Source of the DNA: Anaerolineales bacterium
GTDB taxonomy: Bacteria; Chloroflexota; Anaerolineae; Anaerolineales; RBG-16-64-43
DNA length: 64,000 bases
Direction: 5' to 3'
Assembly (NCBI GenBank): GCA_016928575.1
Contig: JAFGKK010000131.1
Coordinates: 1 to 64,000, forward strand
Position numbers and translations under genes: made by a program. Below, piece after piece: positions 9,088-60,598 of the stretch. Each line of letters opens with the position of its first letter. Positions within the stretch are counted from its first letter, which is position 1. The notes beneath the pieces are model-generated. The model worked only from the letters and a program-made list of their open reading frames with translations. It had not been told where the DNA came from and searched no databases.

Positions 9088-9231
9088 TCGTCATGCCCGC
9101 GTGTTTTTAGCGGGCATCCACTCCGAAATATCATGGATTCCCGCTTGGGCCACCCCCGCTTCGTATTCATCCCGGCTCATGAACCAGTTGCAAGCCGGGA
9201 TACTCCGCGGGGGCAGGCGCGGGAATGACGG
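9088..9231. repeat. Intergenic palindromic repeat element
   Basis: The csp-pheT spacer holds a hairpin ATGCCCGC...GCGGGCAT (9093-9117) and, further on, GATTCCCGC matched by GCGGGAAT close to pheT (9136-9226). This resembles the widespread bacterial intergenic element whose copies read ATTCCCGC/GCGGGAAT. No gene is seen in it. Confidence 0.6.
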
Positions 9232-9237
9232 CAACCC

Positions 9238-11832
9238 CTACCGCCGCACCTTCCCGCCCAAATCCCCTTCCAATGCCTCGATGATTCGTCCGCGCAGTTC
9301 GGCCGCCTCGGCGTTCGAGAGGGTCTTGTCGGACGATTGGTAAGCCAGCGAAAAAGCCAGACTCTTCATGCCCGCCCCCGCCTGCTCGCCGCGGTAGACG
9401 TCGAACAGCCGGATTCGCTTCAACAGCCCGCCGCCCGCACTGCGGATGGTTTGGATCACCCGCCGGGCGGGCATCGCTTCCGGCACGGCGACGGCCAAGT
9501 CCTCGAGCACCGGCGGATAGTCGGAGATCGGCGCGATCGCGTAACGCTGCTGCAAGCCCGGCCGCAGAAGTTCGAACTCGAGTTCGGCCGCCAGGAGATC
9601 CCGCCCCGCCCATTCGTAGCGCGCGGCGGTTTGCGGATGCATTTGCCCCGCGACGCCGACCGGATGGCCGCCGAGGAGGATCTTGGCGCAGCGCCCAGGA
9701 TGAAACCGCGGATCGGACGCCGATTCGAAGGCGATGCCGTCAAGGTGCAGGCCGGCGAACCATTCCTCGAGGATCCCTTTCAGGTCGTAAAAATCCATCG
9801 GCGTGCGGTCGGCGGGCCGCCAGTCCCCGTCCGTCCGCGGGCCGGCCATCACGATCGCCAGCTGGGCCGGTTCGTCCGGGAGCGGATTCGCGCCGGGAAG
9901 GTAGACCGGGCCGAGTTCGAACAGGGCGATCCGGTCGGTGTGGGCGGCGTTGCGGGCGGCGGTTTCCAGCACCGCCGCGAGCACCGAACGGCGCATCACG
10001 CAGCGTTCCGGGACGATCGGATTGGCAAGCCGGATGTATGCGGGATCCGGAGGTTTGCCGCCCGGCGGGTACATCCCGGCTTCGCGTTCGGGCGCCGTCA
10101 GATGGTAGGTCAGAACCTCCTGCAGTCCGAGGTCCACCAAGAGATCCCGGGCGGCTTCTTCCTGTTCCAAGGAGGTGTTCGAGCGCTGCTTGGGCAAGAG
10201 GTCCCCGATTTGCGCTTCGGGGATGCGGTCGTATCCGTAGATCCGCGCAATCTCCTCGATCAGGTCGGCTTGGCCGATCACGCCTTTTCCGATGTCGAGG
10301 CGGTGGTCGGGCGCGGCGACCTGCAGGGTGACGTCCTCGTCGGCGATCTTCCCCTTCCGTTTCCGGCGCGGGGCGGTTTCTTTCACCCGGCAGGAGAACT
10401 CCAGGCTTTCCAGGATTTGCGCCACCTTCTTGAGCGGGATGTGTATTCCGAGCAGGCGGCGGACCTCCTTTAACGGCAGATCCACGCGCACGATCGGCGC
10501 CTTTTTGGGGTAGGCGTCAACCACGTCGCGCGAGATGGCGCCCCCGCCGAGGGTGCGCATCAGTTCGGCGGCGCGCGAGAGTCCGCGCAGGGCGACCGCG
10601 GGGTGCACGCCGCGCGAGAAGCGGAAAGCGGCTTCCGAGGGCAGCTTTTGCGCGTCGACGGTCCGCCGGATGTTGATGTAATCCCAGGCGGCGGCTTCCA
10701 GCAGGATGTTCTTGGTTTCGTCGCGGACTTCGCTCTCCGCGCCGCCCATCACCCCGGCGATCGACAGCGCGCCCTTTTCGTCGCAGACCAAGACGGTGAA
10801 TTCGTCGAGCCTGCGCTCCGCGCCGTCGAGCGTGGTCAGCGTTTCGCCCTGCTTGGCGGTGCGGGTGACGATCGTCACCGGCCCGCCGGCGCGCGCGGCG
10901 AGCGAATCCCAGTCGAAGGCGTGCAGGGGCTGGCCGGTCTCGAGCATCACATAGTTGGTGATGTCGACGATGTTGTTGATCGGGCGCATCCCCGCGCGGG
11001 TCAGCCGGCGCTGCATCCACTCCGGGCTGGGTCCGATCGACACCCCGCGGATGAGAACCGCGGTGAAGCGCGGATTGAGGTCCGGGTGTTCGATTCGGAT
11101 CTTCAGCTGTTTGCGGAGGGATTCGCCCTCGGCCTTCATCCCGTAGGAAGGCGGCCGGAGCTTGCGGCCGGTGAGGGCGGCCACTTCGCGGGCGATTCCC
11201 ACCAGGCAGGCGTTGCGGGCCATGTTGGGGTTGATCTTGACCGTGAAGATCACGTCGCCCAGGTAATCGGCGAGCGGCGCTCCAACCGGGGCGTCGTCGG
11301 AAAGAATCATCACGCCCTCGTGCGCCTCGGAAATCCCCAGCTCCTTCTCGGAGCAGATCATCGAATAGGATTCCACGCCGCGGATCTTCATCCGCGAGAG
11401 GGTGGCGAGCACCTGCCCCGGCTGGTGGCCGTCGTAGAGCACCGATCCCTCGCGGGCGTAGGCCACCTTGAGCGGCCGGGCGAGCGGTCCCTGGCCTTTG
11501 TAGGGGAACAGGTTCGGCGCGCCGGTGAGCACGGTGTGGATCGTCTGCCCGTCGTCGAGCCGGCACAGCACCAGGCGGTCGGCGTTCGGATGCGGCATCA
11601 CCTCGAACACGCGGCCGACGACGATCTTCGACCGGTCCCAGGCCAGCCCCTTGGCTTTGGGGCCCGGCGCGTCGGCGGGCGGCAGCCCGTCGATGTGGCC
11701 GTTGTGCGGGGCTAGGCCGATGTATTCGACCGCCTCCACCTCCAGTCCGGCGAAGGTCAGCCGTTTGGCGAGTTCCTCGGGGGTGAGGTCGAAGTCGACG
11801 TATTCTTTCAGCCAGGAAAGAGGCACTCTCAT
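9238..11832 (-). CDS. pheT: Phenylalanine-tRNA ligase beta subunit
   Basis: Beta subunit of the alpha2-beta2 PheRS, 864 residues, somewhat longer than the usual ~800. In order: N-terminal helix-containing start (M-R-V-P-L-S-W-L), EMAP/tRNA-binding domain around residues 60-190, the B3/B4 editing region in the middle, B5, and the C-terminal ferredoxin-fold anticodon-binding domain (about 770-864). A Lys/Arg-rich insert (about residue 515) lies in the B5 region. It is downstream of pheS with 175 bases between them, unusually long for pheST, and that gap carries GGACCATGG-type repeats. Confidence 0.97.
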   Translation of the reverse strand: MRVPLSWLKEYVDFDLTPEELAKRLTFAGLEVEAVEYIGLAPHNGHIDGLPPADAPGPKAKGLAWDRSKIVVGRVFEVMPHPNADRLVLCRLDDGQTIHTVLTGAPNLFPYKGQGPLARPLKVAYAREGSVLYDGHQPGQVLATLSRMKIRGVESYSMICSEKELGISEAHEGVMILSDDAPVGAPLADYLGDVIFTVKINPNMARNACLVGIAREVAALTGRKLRPPSYGMKAEGESLRKQLKIRIEHPDLNPRFTAVLIRGVSIGPSPEWMQRRLTRAGMRPINNIVDITNYVMLETGQPLHAFDWDSLAARAGGPVTIVTRTAKQGETLTTLDGAERRLDEFTVLVCDEKGALSIAGVMGGAESEVRDETKNILLEAAAWDYINIRRTVDAQKLPSEAAFRFSRGVHPAVALRGLSRAAELMRTLGGGAISRDVVDAYPKKAPIVRVDLPLKEVRRLLGIHIPLKKVAQILESLEFSCRVKETAPRRKRKGKIADEDVTLQVAAPDHRLDIGKGVIGQADLIEEIARIYGYDRIPEAQIGDLLPKQRSNTSLEQEEAARDLLVDLGLQEVLTYHLTAPEREAGMYPPGGKPPDPAYIRLANPIVPERCVMRRSVLAAVLETAARNAAHTDRIALFELGPVYLPGANPLPDEPAQLAIVMAGPRTDGDWRPADRTPMDFYDLKGILEEWFAGLHLDGIAFESASDPRFHPGRCAKILLGGHPVGVAGQMHPQTAARYEWAGRDLLAAELEFELLRPGLQQRYAIAPISDYPPVLEDLAVAVPEAMPARRVIQTIRSAGGGLLKRIRLFDVYRGEQAGAGMKSLAFSLAYQSSDKTLSNAEAAELRGRIIEALEGDLGGKVRR

Positions 11833-52613: not shown

Positions 52614-53375
52614 TTATTCCCGGATTCCGGCGGCGTAGAAGGTCGGGATGTGGAGAACGCGCCGGCCGTTTTCGCGCGCGCTCCTCTCGGCGGTGCGGAA
52701 GGCCTGCCATTCCTCTTCCGCAACCTCTCCCTGTAAATCCTCCCGCAGGATTCTCAACTCGCTCTCCGCCGCTTTCTCGCCGCCGGCATCGGGAAGGGCG
52801 GCGGAGGCCATAACGCCGCATTCGAGCAGGCGTATTCCGGCATCGCAAAAGAGTTCGGCCAGGCGGCGCCCGGCGGCCGTATCGGCTCCCTGGCGCCGGA
52901 GGGCTTCGGTTTGCCGCCGGCCGAACGCCGTTAGTTCCGCGGGATGGTCGATCCGCGCGTCGTGGTCCGGTTCGGCCATCGCCGCCACCCAGCCGCCGGA
53001 GCGCGTGACCCGGACCATCTCGCGCAAGGCCTGCGCGCTTTCGCGGACCCACATCAGAAAGTAATGGCAGAAGACCAGGCCGAACGCCCCGTCGCGGAAC
53101 GGCAGGCGCAGGGCGTCTCCGCCGAGGTACGCACTCCGCGCGCCGCAGGCGCGGGCGAAACCCAGGCGCGCAAGGTCGATCTCCACTCCGCAGACGAGCG
53201 TCTCCGGATGCGAGCGCGCCGCGGATTCGGTGACGGCGCCGGTCCCGCAGCCGACTTCGAGGATGCGGCGGGCGCGGTCGATGCCCGCGCGCTCGAAGAG
53301 GTGACTCCGCAGGGAATCGGTCCAGCGGGCTTGCTGGAGGAATCGATCATGCCAGTCGGCGAGGGTCAGGGTCAT
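52614..53375 (-). CDS. Class I SAM-dependent methyltransferase
   Basis: 253 residues with motif I L-E-V-G-C-G-T-G-A-V (about 39-48), acidic motif after strand 2 (G-V-E-I-D), and F-R-D-G-A-F-G-L-V. Closest in style to UbiE/Methyltransf_11 enzymes. Same-strand neighbour of the degenerate radical SAM gene, with a palindrome in the 63-base gap, so operon membership is likely but not certain. Substrate unknown; modifying a peptide or lipid in this locus is speculation. Confidence 0.88.
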   Translation of the reverse strand: MTLTLADWHDRFLQQARWTDSLRSHLFERAGIDRARRILEVGCGTGAVTESAARSHPETLVCGVEIDLARLGFARACGARSAYLGGDALRLPFRDGAFGLVFCHYFLMWVRESAQALREMVRVTRSGGWVAAMAEPDHDARIDHPAELTAFGRRQTEALRRQGADTAAGRRLAELFCDAGIRLLECGVMASAALPDAGGEKAAESELRILREDLQGEVAEEEWQAFRTAERSARENGRRVLHIPTFYAAGIRE

Positions 53376-53438: not shown

Positions 53439-54590
53439 TTACGCCCGCGCATTGCGCCAGAGCGTTTCCCAGGAGTCATTCAGGAAATTTCCGAGTACGC
53501 GGTTGACGCCCTGCTCGGGCAAGACATCGCCGTCGGGCTCGACGTACAGCCAGGCTTTTCCGGCGCCGGTGGACGGCGCGCCGATTTCCTGCGAAACCGG
53601 ATTGGCCGAGGAGTACGGGACCGGAAGATCCCATTGCAGGGTCAGCTCCAGGTCGGCCGCCCGCCCGCGCAGAGCCACCAGGGTTTCCGCGCCGGCCGAA
53701 TCGGACGCGCTGAGGGAGATGGCCTTCACCTGCGCCTGGTGCAGGCGTTCGAGGATTTCCTCGGCTCGGGGGGCCAACACGCGGTTCAGGGTGAGATGCA
53801 CGGTGGTCGCCAGGTCGGCCTGCATCGCGTTTCGAATGGCGGTCCAGGCGGCTTCCTCCCCGGGTTGCAGCAGGAACATGAGATGGTCGAGGCCGCTGTC
53901 AAGCAGGGATTTTAGGTAGGCGTCTTCCGCCAGGCGCAGGCTGCCGCTGAGCAATCCGCAGACTTGGCCGAGCGATTCGGCGCGGGCGATCAGCGCCGGC
54001 AGGTCGTCGCGCAGCGCGGGTTCCCCGCCGGTGAACACCACGTGCGGTATCCCTGCCGCCCAGGCCTTCTCCAGGATCGTCTTCCAGGCGTCCGCCGCCA
54101 GTTCGTCCTTCGCGCGTTCCGCGGGCGCGTAATGGATGCTTTCGCCCTCGGGCAGGCGGTAGGTGAGGGCGCAGTCCAACCGGTACGGCGCGGAGATCTC
54201 CTGGGAATAGGGATCGCGGCGGTCGAATTCCAGGTACGTCACCGGATCCAGATCCGTGGAGTGAACCAGGGTTTCCACCCGCCCCACAAAATCCGTGTAA
54301 TCGCGGAGGGCCTGCTTGGCGCTCACCCGGTAGCGGGAAGAGATCACCCGGGCGGCTTTTTCCGGAGACGAACCCTTCACCCACTGGTAGGCGCATTCGG
54401 CCGCGGTCTGGTTTAAATGCAGGACCGTCGAGGCGTTGAGGATCAGAATCCCGCTGCCGTCCTGCTCCAGGCGCAGATGCAGCCGGTAGGGATTGGGGGA
54501 ATCCGGCGGGGATGGATAAGTGTACAAGCCCGCCGGCAGTGCGGGAACGGTGCGAAAGCGGTTGCGGATCCTTTTAATGAGAGATGCCAT
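53439..54590 (-). CDS. PqqD-domain/radical-SAM-fold protein lacking all cluster cysteines
   Basis: 383 residues from ATG 54590 (GGAGG upstream). It is colinear with the radical SAM enzyme at 57.0-58.4 kb: PqqD-like N-domain (about 30-110), then Y-R-L-D-C-A-L-T-Y-R at 136-145. Where the partner has C144-x3-C148-x2-C151, this protein has L146, E150 and H153. F-T-G-G-E-P (186-191), the SAM-contacting motif, is intact. The SPASM cysteines are also gone (V-E-P-D-G-D-V-L-P-E) and the protein ends before the last SPASM cluster. It cannot bind the [4Fe-4S] cluster by the usual motif, so it is likely a pseudoenzyme, chaperone or substrate-presenting subunit. Confidence 0.88.
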   Translation of the reverse strand: MASLIKRIRNRFRTVPALPAGLYTYPSPPDSPNPYRLHLRLEQDGSGILILNASTVLHLNQTAAECAYQWVKGSSPEKAARVISSRYRVSAKQALRDYTDFVGRVETLVHSTDLDPVTYLEFDRRDPYSQEISAPYRLDCALTYRLPEGESIHYAPAERAKDELAADAWKTILEKAWAAGIPHVVFTGGEPALRDDLPALIARAESLGQVCGLLSGSLRLAEDAYLKSLLDSGLDHLMFLLQPGEEAAWTAIRNAMQADLATTVHLTLNRVLAPRAEEILERLHQAQVKAISLSASDSAGAETLVALRGRAADLELTLQWDLPVPYSSANPVSQEIGAPSTGAGKAWLYVEPDGDVLPEQGVNRVLGNFLNDSWETLWRNARA

Positions 54591-54637: not shown

Positions 54638-57028
54638 CTACGCTTCGCCGCGGCATTGCGCGCAGTCCGGCGGGAAATCGTCCCAGGCGAACGATCCGGT
54701 TTGCTGCATCAGAAAGACGGGTGGTTGGTCCCCGGCCGGGATCAGCAGCAGCTCCCCGGCCTCCGCGGCTTTGCGGTAGATCCAGACCAGAACGGTCTCC
54801 GCATCCGCGCTCCACAGCGCGGTGAACGAATCCCGGTAGTCGAGGATCAGGGGCGCTGCGAGCAAGGGGGTTTCCCCCGAACCGTCGGCGGCGGCGGAAA
54901 CCATGCGCACGGCGTATTCCGTCACTTCCATTCCGGCGGGCCGACTCACAAAGTACGCCAGCCTGCCGTCCGGCCGGTGGCACGGCCACCACACGAAGGA
55001 ATCCGAGACCAACGCCGAGGACGCGCCGGCCGCGGAGAGCTTGGCCAAGCCCGGATTCATCCCGCCCATCATCGGATACACCGCGCTGGCGAGCAGGACG
55101 GCTTGGCTGTCGTTTGTCCAGGCCGACATATGGGAATACTCGCCGGAGGCCAGCAGGGCGCCGTCGGCGGAAAGGATTCCGGCTTCGGCCCATTCATAGC
55201 GGCCGATCATCACCAGCAGTTTGGATCCGTCCGGTGACCATGCTCGCGGATAGTATTTGGCGAAGTCCGCGGGGGAGGCGGCGTCGTTGTCCGCGATCAG
55301 CAGTCGATCCTCGCCGCTGACCGGGTCGAAGACGCGGACGCCGTCGAGCGCGTACGCCAGGCGGCCGTCGGGTGAAAACGCCAGGCCTCCCGCGTACCGT
55401 TCGCCGATATCGGCGATCGCGCGCCGCCCCGTTCCGTCCCGGCCGACGAGGATGATTTCCGTCCGGCTGAGAAAGGCGATGGATCCGTCCGCGGCCGAGA
55501 CCGCAAAGGTCCGGACGCCTTCCGTCTCATCGGTGATCTGAGCGAGAGTCGCGCCGTCGGTCTCCATCCGCCAGATCTGCGCCCTACCGCTGCGGTCGGA
55601 AAGGAAATACAGAGGCGAGGGAAGAACGCGCGCTCCTTCGGCCAGCACCTCCACCGAGGCGGAAAGCGTCAGCGGCAGGCCGTCCCCTGCGGGCACGGCG
55701 CGCCCGGTGTTGTCGAACAGCACCCAGGATCCGGAATGGCTTCCGGAGGCCGCCGGCGCGACGAGCGGCAGCGCCATGTCGACGGAATCCCCGGGCTGGA
55801 TGGCGCCGGAAACCGGCAAGTAGGCCGCGCCGCTCATGGTTGCCCCCCCGCCGAACCGCAATCCGTACCCGGCCGGAGGCCAGGCGCATGCGCCGCTGTT
55901 GCGGACTCGCCACACTTTGGTGAATTCCTGCGGGCCGGTGAAGCGGGTGCCGGCCGGAATGGTCACATGCGCGGCGAATTCCCCCTCCGGCGCGCAAACT
56001 CCGTAATCGGTTCCCGCCGGCGTCCGGCGCCAAGTCGGCCAGCGGTCGGTCGTCCGGTTGTTGGTCAGCCGCAGTTCGCCGCTTCCGTCGGCGTTGACGA
56101 GGTAGATCTCGTAGTTGCCGTCGTTGGCTTCGTGGCGGGTGGAAGTGTAGGCGATCTGATTCCCGTCCGGGGACCAGGCCGGATCAAATTCGCTGGCATC
56201 GTCGGAGGTGACGCGCACCAATCCGCTGCCGTCGGCGTTCATCCGGTAAATGTCCCCTTGTCCGACCGCCTCCGTCCGACTCCTGCCGGAGAAGGCGATC
56301 TGCAGGCTGTCCGGCGACCAAGCGGCTCCGGACTCATCGGCGTCGGGGGTGTTCGTCAGGCGGGTCAGGCCGGTTCCGTCCGGATGGATCTTGTACAGGT
56401 CTTTCACCTGCTTGGCAGTGTCTTCGTAGTAGGAAAAGGCGATCCAGGCTCCGTCGGGCGACCAGGCCAGGTCGGTTGCGCGCTGGGGAATTCCTGGAAT
56501 TTGCGCCGGGGGCGATCCGAACAGGTCCGCCGTGTATGCCGTCCAATTTCCGGTCTCATGGGTCGAGACGAACGCCACGCGGCTGCCGTCCGGAGACCAA
56601 GTCGGGCCGTCGGCAAATCCATGGAACACCTCGGCGGGCGCGGATCCGGCGGGCCGGCCGCCTTCCATCCGGACCTCCATCACCGCGATTCCGCCGCCGT
56701 CCATCGAGATTTCCTCGCGCATCGCCAATCTGCCCCCGTCCGGCGAAAAGACGGGCCGGTAATACTCGCCCGGATATCCGGCGGTGAGGCTGCTCACGTT
56801 CCCGGTTTGCAGATCCATCAGCACCACCTGCGAATCCCCCGTAAAGGTGGAGGAGCCAAAGGCGATCTGTCCGGGCGGATTGGGAACGGGCGTCGGCGTG
56901 GGCGATGCGGTCTGGATCGGCGCGGGCGTCGAGGCGCCCGGTGTGGCGAGCGGCGAGCGCGGACCGCAGGCGAAGACGGCCGCCAGAAGGATCGTCAGGA
57001 TGGTGGCTTTGCGCGTGGATTGGGACAT
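54638..57028 (-). CDS. TolB-like beta-propeller lipoprotein with NBR1-type Ig domain
   Basis: 796 residues. Lipobox A-V-F-A-C near residue 21 and a Thr/Pro/Ala linker, then a first propeller (about 50-335) of PD40 repeats with recurring F-S-P-D-G and W-S-P-D-G-x. An NBR1-like Ig domain (about 345-445) follows with F-T-K-V-W-R-V-R-N-S-G-A-C-A-W, a frequent feature of Chloroflexi surface proteins (from memory). A second PD40 propeller runs to the end. It is extracytoplasmic and tethered to the membrane. Start ATG 57028 is two bases after the radical SAM stop, so the two are co-translated. Confidence 0.88.
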   Translation of the reverse strand: MSQSTRKATILTILLAAVFACGPRSPLATPGASTPAPIQTASPTPTPVPNPPGQIAFGSSTFTGDSQVVLMDLQTGNVSSLTAGYPGEYYRPVFSPDGGRLAMREEISMDGGGIAVMEVRMEGGRPAGSAPAEVFHGFADGPTWSPDGSRVAFVSTHETGNWTAYTADLFGSPPAQIPGIPQRATDLAWSPDGAWIAFSYYEDTAKQVKDLYKIHPDGTGLTRLTNTPDADESGAAWSPDSLQIAFSGRSRTEAVGQGDIYRMNADGSGLVRVTSDDASEFDPAWSPDGNQIAYTSTRHEANDGNYEIYLVNADGSGELRLTNNRTTDRWPTWRRTPAGTDYGVCAPEGEFAAHVTIPAGTRFTGPQEFTKVWRVRNSGACAWPPAGYGLRFGGGATMSGAAYLPVSGAIQPGDSVDMALPLVAPAASGSHSGSWVLFDNTGRAVPAGDGLPLTLSASVEVLAEGARVLPSPLYFLSDRSGRAQIWRMETDGATLAQITDETEGVRTFAVSAADGSIAFLSRTEIILVGRDGTGRRAIADIGERYAGGLAFSPDGRLAYALDGVRVFDPVSGEDRLLIADNDAASPADFAKYYPRAWSPDGSKLLVMIGRYEWAEAGILSADGALLASGEYSHMSAWTNDSQAVLLASAVYPMMGGMNPGLAKLSAAGASSALVSDSFVWWPCHRPDGRLAYFVSRPAGMEVTEYAVRMVSAAADGSGETPLLAAPLILDYRDSFTALWSADAETVLVWIYRKAAEAGELLLIPAGDQPPVFLMQQTGSFAWDDFPPDCAQCRGEA

Positions 57029-57030
57029 GG

Positions 57031-58374
57031 TCAGGATTCCTCCGGACCGCGGTTTTCGAATTGTAGCGGACATCCCCCGCCGCACTCGGCCAGCAGAATG
57101 CAGGATTTGCATTTGGCGGGTACGTTGCGCCGTTCGCGCAAGGAACGGGCGAGGTCGTGGTTCCAGATCGCAGGCCACTCGTCGCGCAGGAGGTTTCCCA
57201 ACGGATGGTAATAGGATTGGCACGGCAGAACGCCGCCGTCGGGTTCGACGCACATGTTGTAGAGCGCGGCGGTGCAGCCCTTCACGCCCAACCCGCTCTG
57301 CACGGGATCCAGCCGGCAATACGCCGTCGGCGTGTACCAGATCAGACGCTGGCCGGCCGCGTCGGTGAACCGGCGGGCGATTGCGAGCAGGGGCGCCAGC
57401 TCCTCCTCCTGTAATCCGGTTCCGACGGTCGCGCCCCGGCCGGAGTGGATCAGGCCGTTCAGACCGACCGTCGGAACGCGCATTTCGGCGAGCCATTCCA
57501 GCGTCGCTTCCAACGTGGGGGTGTTGGCGCGCAAGAGGGTGGTGTTGGTCATCACGAACAGACGGGTCTCCAGAGCGTTGCGCAATCCGGCGGCGGTCTG
57601 CGCCCACGCCCCGCGTTTGCCGACGACGGAATCATGAACGGCTTCGGAGGAGCTTTCGAGGGTGATCTGGACGTGGTCGAGTCCCGCGTCGACCAGGGAA
57701 TTCAGAAATTCCCGGTCGGCCAGCCGCCGGCCGTTGGTGTTCAAACCGGTGATCTGCCCTTTGCGCTCGGCGTACGCGACGAGCTCCGCCAGGTCTTCGC
57801 GCAGCGTCGGTTCGCCCCCGGTGAAGACGACGTGGGGAATCCCGAGATCCCACAGCCGGTCGATCATCCGCCGCCAATCGGCGGCGGGAAGTTCGGGAAA
57901 GGTCCGCGGGCGGGCGTTGTAGCAGTGGGCGCAGTCGTTCTGGCAGCGGTAGGTGAGCGCCAGATCCATCCGGTAGGGAGCCGAGGGGGTGTGGCTGAAC
58001 GGGGCGCGGATATCGAGTTCCATGTCGCACACCGGGCAAGGGCCGCCGGGGCGGGTGAGCGCATCCACCTGGGCGGCGATTTCGGCGAAATCGGCCCGCG
58101 CCCTCCAGCGGGGGATGCGGTACTCGCCGGCGAGTGTTCTGGCAGCCGCCTCAGGGGCGGTACCTTCGAGCGCCAGGTAGGCCATCTGGGCGGCGGTGGG
58201 ATTGAGGTGGAGGATCCGGGCGGCGTCAACCACCAACGTGCCGTGGCCGTCGGAATCCACCCGCAGGTGCGAACGGCTGCGGCCGGCGGTTTCCCGCCTT
58301 TCATAATGATACAGCCCAGGCGCGGGCAGGGAGGGCGTTTCCGTTTTCGGGCGGAAGAATCGCATGGCCTTCAT
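57031..58374 (-). CDS. PqqD-domain radical SAM/SPASM peptide-modifying enzyme
   Basis: 447 residues. An N-terminal PqqD-like (RiPP recognition element) domain (about 30-110), a C113-x2-C116 pair, the radical SAM triad C144-x3-C148-x2-C151, G-G-E-P at 186-189, and a SPASM domain with C353, C367, C375, C385, C422, C425, C431 and C435. SPASM enzymes with a fused RRE modify ribosomally made peptides (established for several classes). The DUF2207 protein encoded just upstream, whose tail is Cys-rich, is the obvious candidate substrate. Start 58374 is a Met with a second Met three codons on. Confidence 0.93.
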   Translation of the reverse strand: MKAMRFFRPKTETPSLPAPGLYHYERRETAGRSRSHLRVDSDGHGTLVVDAARILHLNPTAAQMAYLALEGTAPEAAARTLAGEYRIPRWRARADFAEIAAQVDALTRPGGPCPVCDMELDIRAPFSHTPSAPYRMDLALTYRCQNDCAHCYNARPRTFPELPAADWRRMIDRLWDLGIPHVVFTGGEPTLREDLAELVAYAERKGQITGLNTNGRRLADREFLNSLVDAGLDHVQITLESSSEAVHDSVVGKRGAWAQTAAGLRNALETRLFVMTNTTLLRANTPTLEATLEWLAEMRVPTVGLNGLIHSGRGATVGTGLQEEELAPLLAIARRFTDAAGQRLIWYTPTAYCRLDPVQSGLGVKGCTAALYNMCVEPDGGVLPCQSYYHPLGNLLRDEWPAIWNHDLARSLRERRNVPAKCKSCILLAECGGGCPLQFENRGPEES

Positions 58375-58461
58375 CCCATCAAACTGAGTCGCCGTGCGCG
58401 CCAGCGGGTGCGGATTTCCGCAGTGCGGGCGGGGAGTCTCCTCGGCTCCCTCCGGGCGGGG

Positions 58462-60159
58462 CTAACGCCCGCCTCCGGCGCAGGCGCAGGCGCAACCGGC
58501 GCAAGCGCAGGCGCACGCACAACTGTGGCCGCCGCCGCCCCCGCCCCCGCTTCGCCAGCCTCCGCCGCTGGAAGAGGACACCGGAAGGGGATTGGTTTTC
58601 GCGGTCACCCGGCCCGTGAAACCGGTCAGGTCGCCGATGACGTTCCGGGAGAAGGATTGCACGCCGCCGACGACGGATGCGGCGAAATCGGCGCCGGGCA
58701 GGCGCGGAAGGGAGATTGATCCGCCCCGCGTCGGGCTGAAGGACGGTGCGGCAGCGCCGCGGCCGGCGCCGCCGCCGACGGAAGGATCATAGCGGCCCCA
58801 CCACACCGGCACGAACACCGGACCGCGGCTGAAGATCTCGCGCGAGCGGCCGTCGAAGTCGCGGTCGAGCATCGTCCATTCGAGGTTTTCATCGATCGCC
58901 TGGGCTTTCACTTCCGGGGTGCCGGCCGCGGCGACCTGCTGCCAGGCTTTCTCGGCGATGCTCTTGTAGTAGTCGATCGTCTCTTTGCGCGAGAAGCCTT
59001 TCATCTTCTCCTGCAGGCTTTTAATCAGATTGATGATCACCTGCTGCAGGGTTTTCGGGCGCGTGGCTTTGTTTGAAGATTCAAACGCGCCGAGGAAATC
59101 CGTTTCGTAGGGGTGCAACCCAGCGGGTTTCGGTTCGGTGTTTTTCAATTCCAGCGGGTCGCGGCTGGTGACGGTGACCGCATTCTTCTTCACCAAGCCG
59201 AAGAGGATCATCGTCAAAACCCGGTCGAGCGGTTGTTCCATCAGCAGGGCGGCTTCGACCGCCGTCAGGCCGCGTTTGATCCCGTGGCCTTCGATGGAAA
59301 TTTTCGGCGGCAGGTACTGCTTTTTGCGCTGGTTTTCGGACCAGGCGCCCAGAATTCCCAGGCCGACGATGAAGGCCACCACCCCAAAAATGCAGCTGCA
59401 CGGCGCCAGGGCTTCCAGGTAGGGCCCGATGGATTGGAAGAACCGCTCGAAACTGGATTGGCGGACGATTGCGCTTTCCGGAACGACGGCGGCGGGGAAC
59501 GAAGCGCCGAATTTGTATTGGCTGTAGCCGTTGGCGTTCGGACTGCGCCAGCGGTATGCAACCCGGCCCTCTTCGTCGAGGTAGGTTTCCGGTTCCTCGG
59601 CCCCCGGCCAGTTGGAGCTCGGCCGGTGGTAGCGCGGATCGTCGGGGCCAACCCCGAGGGGTAGGTGATAGACCACCGTCAGATCGGTGGAGCCGTGGAC
59701 GAAGGAAGCGTCGAACCAGGTCGGGGAAAACACCGCGCTGGCGTAGCTCGAATCCTCGTCGTCGGGATACAGCACCCCCCGCACCCGACCGATGCGCACG
59801 CGCACGGTCCCGCTCTGGCCGGCGCGGATGCTGGCGCCGCCCAGACCAAGTGCCACGCCCGGTTTAACGTACGGCGAGGGTTCGATGTCGGAGATCAGGC
59901 GGCCGTCTACGTCGGCCGTCACACTGGTGAGATCGTAGTTTTCGTTGGGGACGCCGACGTCGATGAAGTCGATCGCGTCGGCGCCCGAATCGTTCTGGAA
60001 GACAAAAGTGTATTCGATGGCCAAGCTTCCGTCGTTGTTCCAATAGGAGTGGACCTCCTCCCGGGGCAGGGAGAAGGAATAGTTTTGGGCGGTTGCGCGC
60101 GCCGGGACGGCCAGCGCCGGAAGGAGCAAGAGGAGGGATGCCAGAATTTTGTTCTTCAT
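58462..60159 (-). CDS. DUF2207 membrane protein with alternating Cys-Ala tail
   Basis: 565 residues. Signal peptide (1-24), a ~210-residue extracytoplasmic beta domain of DUF2207 type (about 25-240), a membrane helix (about 253-273), then a ~290-residue cytoplasmic part with a helical region and a Gly-rich stretch (about 530-544). It ends CACACACAGCACACAGGGR: seven Cys at 547, 549, 551, 553, 556, 558 and 560, alternating with Ala. DUF2207 proteins often end in Gly-rich tails; regular Cys alternation is unusual. Encoded 87 bases upstream of the radical SAM gene, so substrate status is likely but unproven. Confidence 0.88.
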   Translation of the reverse strand: MKNKILASLLLLLPALAVPARATAQNYSFSLPREEVHSYWNNDGSLAIEYTFVFQNDSGADAIDFIDVGVPNENYDLTSVTADVDGRLISDIEPSPYVKPGVALGLGGASIRAGQSGTVRVRIGRVRGVLYPDDEDSSYASAVFSPTWFDASFVHGSTDLTVVYHLPLGVGPDDPRYHRPSSNWPGAEEPETYLDEEGRVAYRWRSPNANGYSQYKFGASFPAAVVPESAIVRQSSFERFFQSIGPYLEALAPCSCIFGVVAFIVGLGILGAWSENQRKKQYLPPKISIEGHGIKRGLTAVEAALLMEQPLDRVLTMILFGLVKKNAVTVTSRDPLELKNTEPKPAGLHPYETDFLGAFESSNKATRPKTLQQVIINLIKSLQEKMKGFSRKETIDYYKSIAEKAWQQVAAAGTPEVKAQAIDENLEWTMLDRDFDGRSREIFSRGPVFVPVWWGRYDPSVGGGAGRGAAAPSFSPTRGGSISLPRLPGADFAASVVGGVQSFSRNVIGDLTGFTGRVTAKTNPLPVSSSSGGGWRSGGGGGGGHSCACACACAGCACACAGGGR

Positions 60160-60232
60160 GGATGACGCTCCGCATGAATGGCGTATCCGGATCGGCTCCG
60201 GCCGCGATGCCCGGCCGTTCCCGCCGGGAAAT

Positions 60233-60598
60233 TCACCACTTGGGCTCTTCGGCCAGTTGGTAGGAGGTGTGGCAGTATGGGCACGTCACCACCGGCGCCC
60301 CCGCCACCATCTTGATCGCATCGGCGGTCAGCGCGCCTCCGCAGGATTTGCACTTTAACGTATCAAGGTTGATGTTGGCGGGCAGGTCGATCTTCAGTGT
60401 GACGTTGTCGGCCGGTTTGGGTGCGCCCGGCTTCCAGGACGCGAGCACGATCAGCCCCATGCCGATGGCCACGCTGACCCCGCCAACGCAGATCCACTCG
60501 GGCTGCGAGGTTTCGCCGAATGCGCCCCAAATGAACAGCACGCCGAAGAGGATCAGAATGGCCGCCGCGATGAAACCAAGGATCCGCAATGAATTCAT
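60233..60598 (-). CDS. Zinc-ribbon membrane protein
   Basis: 121 residues. Two N-terminal helices (about 5-27 and 37-58), then a C-terminal zinc ribbon with C-K-S-C-G-G and C-P-Y-C. Start at 60598 (M-N-S-L-R); the longer frame is rejected because it lacks a ribosome site. First gene of the minus-strand run, 73 bases before the DUF2207 gene. Confidence 0.82.
   Translation of the reverse strand: MNSLRILGFIAAAILILFGVLFIWGAFGETSQPEWICVGGVSVAIGMGLIVLASWKPGAPKPADNVTLKIDLPANINLDTLKCKSCGGALTADAIKMVAGAPVVTCPYCHTSYQLAEEPKW

Follow-up and report, generated by a model that had tools for sequence, protein, structure and literature searches.

SkfB and CteB are thioether-forming maturases of ribosomally synthesised and post-translationally modified peptides (RiPPs). 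Like AlbA and RumMC, they are sactipeptide or ranthipeptide maturases, which combine radical S-adenosylmethionine (SAM), SPASM and PqqD-like domains and act on Cys-rich substrates that are short precursors with a removed leader. Radical SAM chemistry is also found on a protein that is not released as a peptide, as QhpD puts thioethers into QhpC (PMC8172795). The nearest published idea to the system described here involves MNIO (DUF692) enzymes, for which a modifying role on the Cys-rich C-termini of certain TIGR04222 membrane proteins has been proposed (PMC12452194, 2025); no radical SAM counterpart was found in the literature searched, and a search for the pairing of such a tail with a radical SAM enzyme returned nothing, most subscription journals being outside its reach. 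Here we describe a unit of this kind in a 64,000-nt stretch of DNA (the window) from an Anaerolineales bacterium (GCA_016928575.1, contig JAFGKK010000131.1; numbering follows the forward strand), where a gene for a radical SAM/SPASM enzyme lies beside a gene for a membrane protein with a Cys-Ala tail. The unit is, on balance, probably a protein-scale RiPP-type maturation system, in which the radical SAM enzyme would modify the tail and a methyltransferase would act afterwards.

The membrane protein (565 residues; 58462..60159, minus strand) has the C-terminus HSCACACACAGCACACAGGGR directly before the stop codon, with seven Cys. The proposed core for modification, CACACACAGCACACAGGGR, comprises residues 547-565 (58465..58521, minus strand) and is likewise followed by the stop. 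After a gap of 87 bases (58375-58461) comes the gene for the 447-residue enzyme (57031..58374, minus strand), the proposed tail maturase. All genes of the unit are co-oriented on the minus strand in the order zinc-ribbon protein, tail membrane protein, enzyme, PD40 protein, pseudo-enzyme and methyltransferase. The initial annotation had drawn attention to the seven-Cys tail, the 87-base gap, the radical SAM/SPASM gene, the zinc-ribbon gene at the head and the shared orientation, each of which is present in the window sequence. It had placed the unit at 57031-60598, and the genes given there stand; the limits do not, since the unit continues to the pseudo-enzyme (53439-54590) and the methyltransferase (52614-53375), so that a methyltransferase and a catalytically dead paralogue are added to its members.

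The unit resembles the MNIO/TIGR04222 pairing in that a membrane protein ending in a low-complexity, Cys-rich segment lies beside a RiPP-type enzyme, modification being proposed in both cases. It differs in its enzyme, which is radical SAM/SPASM, and none of the six operon proteins scanned is an MNIO; in its tail, which is near-invariant and predicted to be cytoplasmic, whereas the TIGR04222 ends are diverse and predicted to be periplasmic; and in the association itself, which is near-absolute here but loose there, a third of TIGR04222 genomes having no MNIO. With the sactipeptide and ranthipeptide maturases it shares the radical SAM and SPASM domains, a probable PqqD-like domain, a Cys-rich candidate substrate and the best fold matches, but that candidate is the end of a 565-residue transmembrane (TM) protein rather than a short precursor. 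In contrast to QhpC, which is a subunit of quinohemoprotein amine dehydrogenase and is unrelated in sequence, the candidate here is a membrane-protein tail predicted to be disordered. In this unit, a peptide chemistry of radical SAM enzymes would have been transferred to the tail of a membrane protein, in a pairing that is unusually broad and faithful.

The tail was searched for at the DNA level with the pattern C[AV]C[AV]GGGR-stop, which fixes the last eight residues. Among 249 genomes of the class (most genomes used throughout are drafts), the pattern matches 31, against one match for the reversed control; 30 of these are genuine long open reading frames with Cys-Ala runs and one is a chance match. 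A scan of 84,980 GTDB species genomes gave at least 118 stretches, of which at least 107 are genuine tails and 11 are chance matches. According to the labels in the genome records, the tail extends over at least a dozen phyla of bacteria and archaea, including Chloroflexota, Asgard archaea, Thermoplasmatota, Armatimonadota and Zixibacteria. Over the class matches and the GTDB matches listed, the tail is written in 137 distinct DNA sequences but in no more than 10 peptide sequences, with TGC/TGT and all four GCN codons in free use, and of the 661 Cys-Cys spacers that the search pattern does not cover, 658 consist of A (534) or AG (124). The tail is 15-21 residues long and stays nearly unchanged while the protein bodies diverge to about 30% identity. 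In an alignment of 74 homologues, mean column agreement rises from 0.49-0.57 for the folded parts to 0.96 over residues 549-565, and residues 549-552 and 556-557, which lie outside the search pattern, are nevertheless invariant. Judged from these alignments, the tail is evidently under strong protein-level selection. A chance or low-complexity origin is ruled out by the reversed control, the spacer counts and the invariance over synonymous change.

The distribution of the enzyme follows that of the tail almost exactly. A hidden Markov model (HMM) of the enzyme, run on the 249 class genomes, leaves a clean gap between 34 genomes scoring 561-731 bits and the next ones at 299-369 bits and lower. 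All 30 class genomes with a genuine tail are among these 34 (Fisher p about 3e-33 for the class, even when the single chance match is held against the association). The other four of the 249 hold the enzyme without a tail: in G010 and G132 the enzyme gene sits where a contig ends, and the genomes G009 and G161 are 85% and 68% complete. Among the GTDB matches listed, 105 of the 107 genuine-tail genomes encode the enzyme. It lies in the same stretch (up to 8 kb) as 89 of the 107 tails, mostly 0-150 bases away, and 16 of the 18 remaining genomes hold it elsewhere (14 at full length), showing that the association outlasts separation of the genes; none of the 11 chance pattern matches has the enzyme in its stretch. 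In several genomes, for example G104, G177, G202 and G238, tail and enzyme are on separate contigs, and their joint presence is thus not merely inherited gene order. Cys tails are therefore not equally frequent without the enzyme, the outcome that the initial annotation had named as refuting its proposal. The apparent exceptions, namely the four enzyme-only genomes and the 18 tail-only loci, are nearly all contig ends, drafts or separate loci.

The body of the membrane protein behaves in the same way, as an HMM made without the tail scores 375-565 bits in tail genomes only, and the one partial copy (242 bits) is also from a tail genome. Ordinary DUF2207 proteins, by comparison, are present in 91 of 120 genomes regardless of the enzyme, and the 24 complete ones read end in Gly-rich or similar sequence that is free of Cys, and none has an enzyme of this kind closer than about 1.5 kb.

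A second enzyme-tail pair, referred to as the sister system (system II), varies in parallel. Its enzymes are those scoring 299-369 bits with the system I enzyme HMM, plus one in G122 at 229 bits, and its membrane protein ends in ACHS repeats with 13 Cys but without the A-C-A-C spacing. The sister tail pattern is found in 29 of the 249 genomes, all within the 31 that have the sister enzyme (p 7e-36). In the loci read (L206-L213; e.g. L210:7310-9058 and 9092-10585) the sister enzyme lies directly downstream of the sister membrane protein, and the enzyme is followed by a coiled-coil protein and an InhA/MAM-domain protein. In the enzyme tree, the sister enzymes and each of the two kinds of dead paralogue form one clade apiece with full support. 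Enzyme subfamily therefore tracks tail type, as expected of an enzyme-substrate pair. No class genome has both systems, against 4.2 expected (n=249); mutual exclusion is rejected, as G263 (the genome of L125, from the GTDB scan) carries both enzymes.

The enzyme belongs to the radical SAM family (PF04055, 93.4 bits; cut-off 29.5) and has a SPASM domain (PF13186, 39.5 bits; cut-off 21.5). Its CxxxCxxC motif (C144, C148 and C151; 57922..57945, minus strand) is invariant in two homologue alignments, the catalytic and SPASM Cys are invariant in 64 enzyme homologues, and the SPASM pattern Cx12Gx4C...Cx2Cx5Cx3C is invariant in the enzyme alignments; the last SPASM Cys, found in many relatives, is missing from the window enzyme. 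The initial annotation had described a PqqD-domain radical SAM/SPASM enzyme; the radical SAM and SPASM assignments hold above their cut-offs, while PqqD scores 20.1 bits, under the Pfam cut-off of 23.4 that the sister enzyme exceeds (25.6 bits). The N-terminal region (about residues 18-107; 58054..58323, minus strand) is PqqD-like in its predicted secondary structure. The AlphaFold2 model (predicted local distance difference test score, pLDDT, 88.5) has N-terminal strands and three helices as in PqqD, followed by a radical SAM barrel and a SPASM region, and the best nearly full-length Foldseek matches are SkfB, SuiB (with and without peptide) and CteB. The predicted fold and these matches support an N-terminus resembling a RiPP recognition element. 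The Foldseek list further includes EpeE, an epimerase, and anSME, a sulfatase maturase. None of the named NCBIfam peptide-maturase families (PqqE, mycofactocin, SkfB, StsB, GeoRSP, ACGX and others) is matched above its curated cut-off, the best being PqqE at 114.5 versus 381, and the sister enzyme is likewise far under these cut-offs.

The tail protein is made up of a signal peptide, an extracellular β domain (about residues 25-235), one TM segment (about 246-276), a cytoplasmic winged-helix/helical part, a C-terminal module and the Cys tail; Cys accounts for only 0.5% of the protein outside the tail. Hydropathy gives a single TM segment after the signal peptide, which should place the tail in the cytoplasm, the compartment where radical SAM enzymes work. 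The AlphaFold2 model (mean pLDDT 86) is consistent with this predicted placement, with a signal helix, an extracellular β domain, a long TM helix, a winged-helix/helical cytoplasmic part and helices at 489-508 and 511-522 before the tail. The ectodomain resembles, in a structure search, the M1 aminopeptidase N-domain and the N-terminal domain of ribophorin I, and this gave no lead to its function. The layout is like that of DUF2207 (PF09972), with signal peptide, extracellular domain, TM segment, cytoplasmic part and Gly-rich end. The earlier description of a DUF2207 membrane protein nonetheless stands only for a membrane protein with a Cys tail: no Pfam or NCBIfam family, DUF2207 and TIGR04222 included, is matched at E<=1, and DUF2207 membership is ruled out by HMM, with no match in the protein or in its own genome. 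From sequence comparison, the protein is a remote relative of both families, linked through the sister membrane protein, which passes the DUF2207 cut-off (31 bits; cut-off 24.4) and comes close to that of TIGR04222 (38.3; cut-off 43).

Some loci depart from this plan. The archaeal-type tail proteins of L110 (Sigynarchaeota) and L166 have extra TM helices past the extracellular domain, with the enzyme elsewhere in the genome. In L066, L067 and L069, two tandem tail proteins about 2 kb apart occur with one enzyme and with the other kind of dead paralogue, which keeps the SPASM Cys and has no CxxxCxxC. At L076:978-4406 (G052:C353) a Ser/Thr kinase-AAA ATPase-TPR protein ends in the same C-terminal module and tail, beside the enzyme, an arrangement that would be expected if the module plus tail is a self-contained substrate. 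The tail DNA at L076 differs from that of the other tail gene in the same genome, and no second kinase-tail fusion was found in the genus (two genomes). The fusion is a single unconfirmed case and possibly a product of recombination or an assembly chimera.

Among the other members of the unit, the methyltransferase (253 residues; 52614..53375, minus strand) is a class I SAM methyltransferase (Methyltransf_11, 71.6 bits). Of the 63 loci with sufficient sequence, 44 have a homologue no more than 5 kb downstream of the enzyme, Asgard archaea included, and the gene is also found at loci where the enzyme is apart from the tail gene; none was found in eight sister-system loci examined or in 30 DUF2207 control loci. 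Its best solved relative by sequence is LahSB (1.9e-12 over about 105 residues), a RiPP methyltransferase whose target is the C-terminal carboxylate of modified lanthipeptides (PMC11285071). This likeness is at the level of generic class I methyltransferases and thus only a hint. The gene at the head of the unit (60233..60598, minus strand) encodes a small membrane protein of 121 residues that carries a CxxC...CxxC zinc ribbon at its C-terminus and has weak matches to zinc-ribbon families. Where the sequence upstream of the tail gene was long enough (88 cases), a relative was present in the stretch 76 times. The pseudo-enzyme (383 residues; 53439..54590, minus strand) is a paralogue of the radical SAM enzyme without the CxxxCxxC motif and without SPASM Cys; each of the family's 5 genomes has it, and it forms clade PsA in the tree (support 100/100). 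Depending on lineage, two different enzyme-like paralogues without CxxxCxxC are found beside the active enzyme. No conserved peptidase or exporter/transporter was found among the neighbours examined.

Two further neighbours were noted. The 796-residue lipoprotein-like PD40 propeller protein (54638..57028, minus strand; profile matches) is inserted between the two enzyme genes and bears a bacterial N_BRCA1_IG (next-to-BRCA1) immunoglobulin-like domain. It was rejected as a partner, as relatives occur in only 3 of all stretches examined, which puts it outside the conserved set. At L065:11488-12489, a 334-residue protein of no Pfam or NCBIfam family and with a hydrophobic C-terminus lies between the enzyme and the dead paralogue, and has relatives in 13 stretches.

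The tail is very probably the substrate of the enzyme. The initial annotation had proposed the cytoplasmic tail of a large membrane protein in this role, and the co-occurrence and the tracking of tail type by enzyme subfamily both support it. The account that follows is inferred, from the segment recognised and the site of methylation to the part played by the pseudo-enzyme and what the protein is for. The PqqD-like domain would grip residues 487-526, from the LPGADFA helix to TNPxP (58582..58701, minus strand), a proposed recognition segment N-terminal to the core that is conserved in the 74 homologues, covers the predicted helices and accompanies the tail on the kinase of L076. The tail would then reach the active site, where Cys sulphurs would be joined successively to Ala carbons, in the manner of SkfB- and CteB-like enzymes, to give a small stapled tip; if the tail is modified, such thioether chemistry is reasonably likely. 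The methyltransferase would add a methyl group, perhaps at the C-terminal carboxylate of GGGR or at leftover thiols. C-terminal methylation would explain the constant GGGR end, which is also part of the search pattern. In the window lineage, the dead paralogue may serve as a binding partner of the active enzyme. With no conserved peptidase or exporter, the tail probably stays in place, and a permanent tip on the protein is more probable than release of a peptide; this tip may have a role in metal binding, in redox chemistry or as a scaffold.

Several points weigh against this proposal. Known sactipeptides mostly use residues other than Ala as thioether acceptors, and a direct Cys-Ala alternation does not, to our knowledge, resemble known cores. 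Ala has been seen as a sactionine acceptor, in the Cys5-Ala12 bond of ruminococcin C1 (PMC8172795). The tail is unstructured in the AlphaFold2 prediction, the PqqD score of the window enzyme is below threshold, and two of the 107 tail genomes among the matches listed, both drafts, have no enzyme. The kinase fusion is one case from a draft genome with 8% contamination and has a short similarity junction. No modified tail product has been observed. The enzyme might also act on the tail through other radical chemistry, by epimerising Ala or Cys, oxidising Cys or forming C-C bonds, giving for instance an alternating L/D strand. The strict alternation would suit an epimerase acting on every second residue, EpeE and anSME are among the fold matches, and no thioether enzyme family comes near its curated cut-off. 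The best full-length folds are nevertheless SkfB and CteB, both thioether-forming, together with SuiB. The SPASM Cys and the seven tail Cys suit thioether formation, and the sister tail keeps Cys but not the A-C-A-C spacing, so that Cys is the common element. Such other radical chemistry is considered unlikely, if still a serious contender.

It is less probable again, and rather improbable overall, that the tail is left unmodified and binds Zn, Cu or an Fe-S cluster via free thiols, with the enzyme targeting another member of the pathway such as the zinc-ribbon partner. Alternating Cys do resemble metal-binding tails, the zinc-ribbon gene is the usual upstream neighbour, and MNIO-modified bufferins and methanobactins bind copper (PMC12452194). 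Against this, the zinc-ribbon gene is not found at some tail loci that have the enzyme, enzyme and tail co-occur on different contigs in several genomes, and the enzyme subfamily tracks the tail type. That nothing but shared descent keeps tail and enzyme side by side, with the Cys run a low-complexity relic and the gene order inherited without function, is hardly credible: the tail does follow a Gly-rich low-complexity stretch of a type common in DUF2207 proteins, but its invariance at the protein level over synonymous change, its spread over bacteria and archaea and its co-occurrence with the enzyme despite physical separation all speak against a relic.

Modification of the tail by the enzyme, followed by methylation, lends itself to direct test, as a defined near-invariant tail comes with its own enzyme and methyltransferase and has a natural counterpart in the sister system for comparison, and a transferable tail module with its enzyme would be a handy protein-stapling tool. 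A more far-reaching interpretation, which we put forward tentatively and hold to be somewhat less likely than its opposite, is that the proteins carry a permanent cytoplasmic chemical tip, either poly-thioether or alternating D/L Cys-Ala and then methylated. A radical SAM enzyme dedicated to this task would build the tip, which would be conserved between Asgard archaea and many phyla of bacteria and paralleled by a second enzyme-tail pair of other sequence; the tip would act as a cofactor or a structural element, and not as a secreted peptide. Should the tail prove to be modified, the use of RiPP chemistry would extend beyond small secreted peptides and cofactors to a resident membrane protein of bacteria and archaea, Asgard lineages among them.

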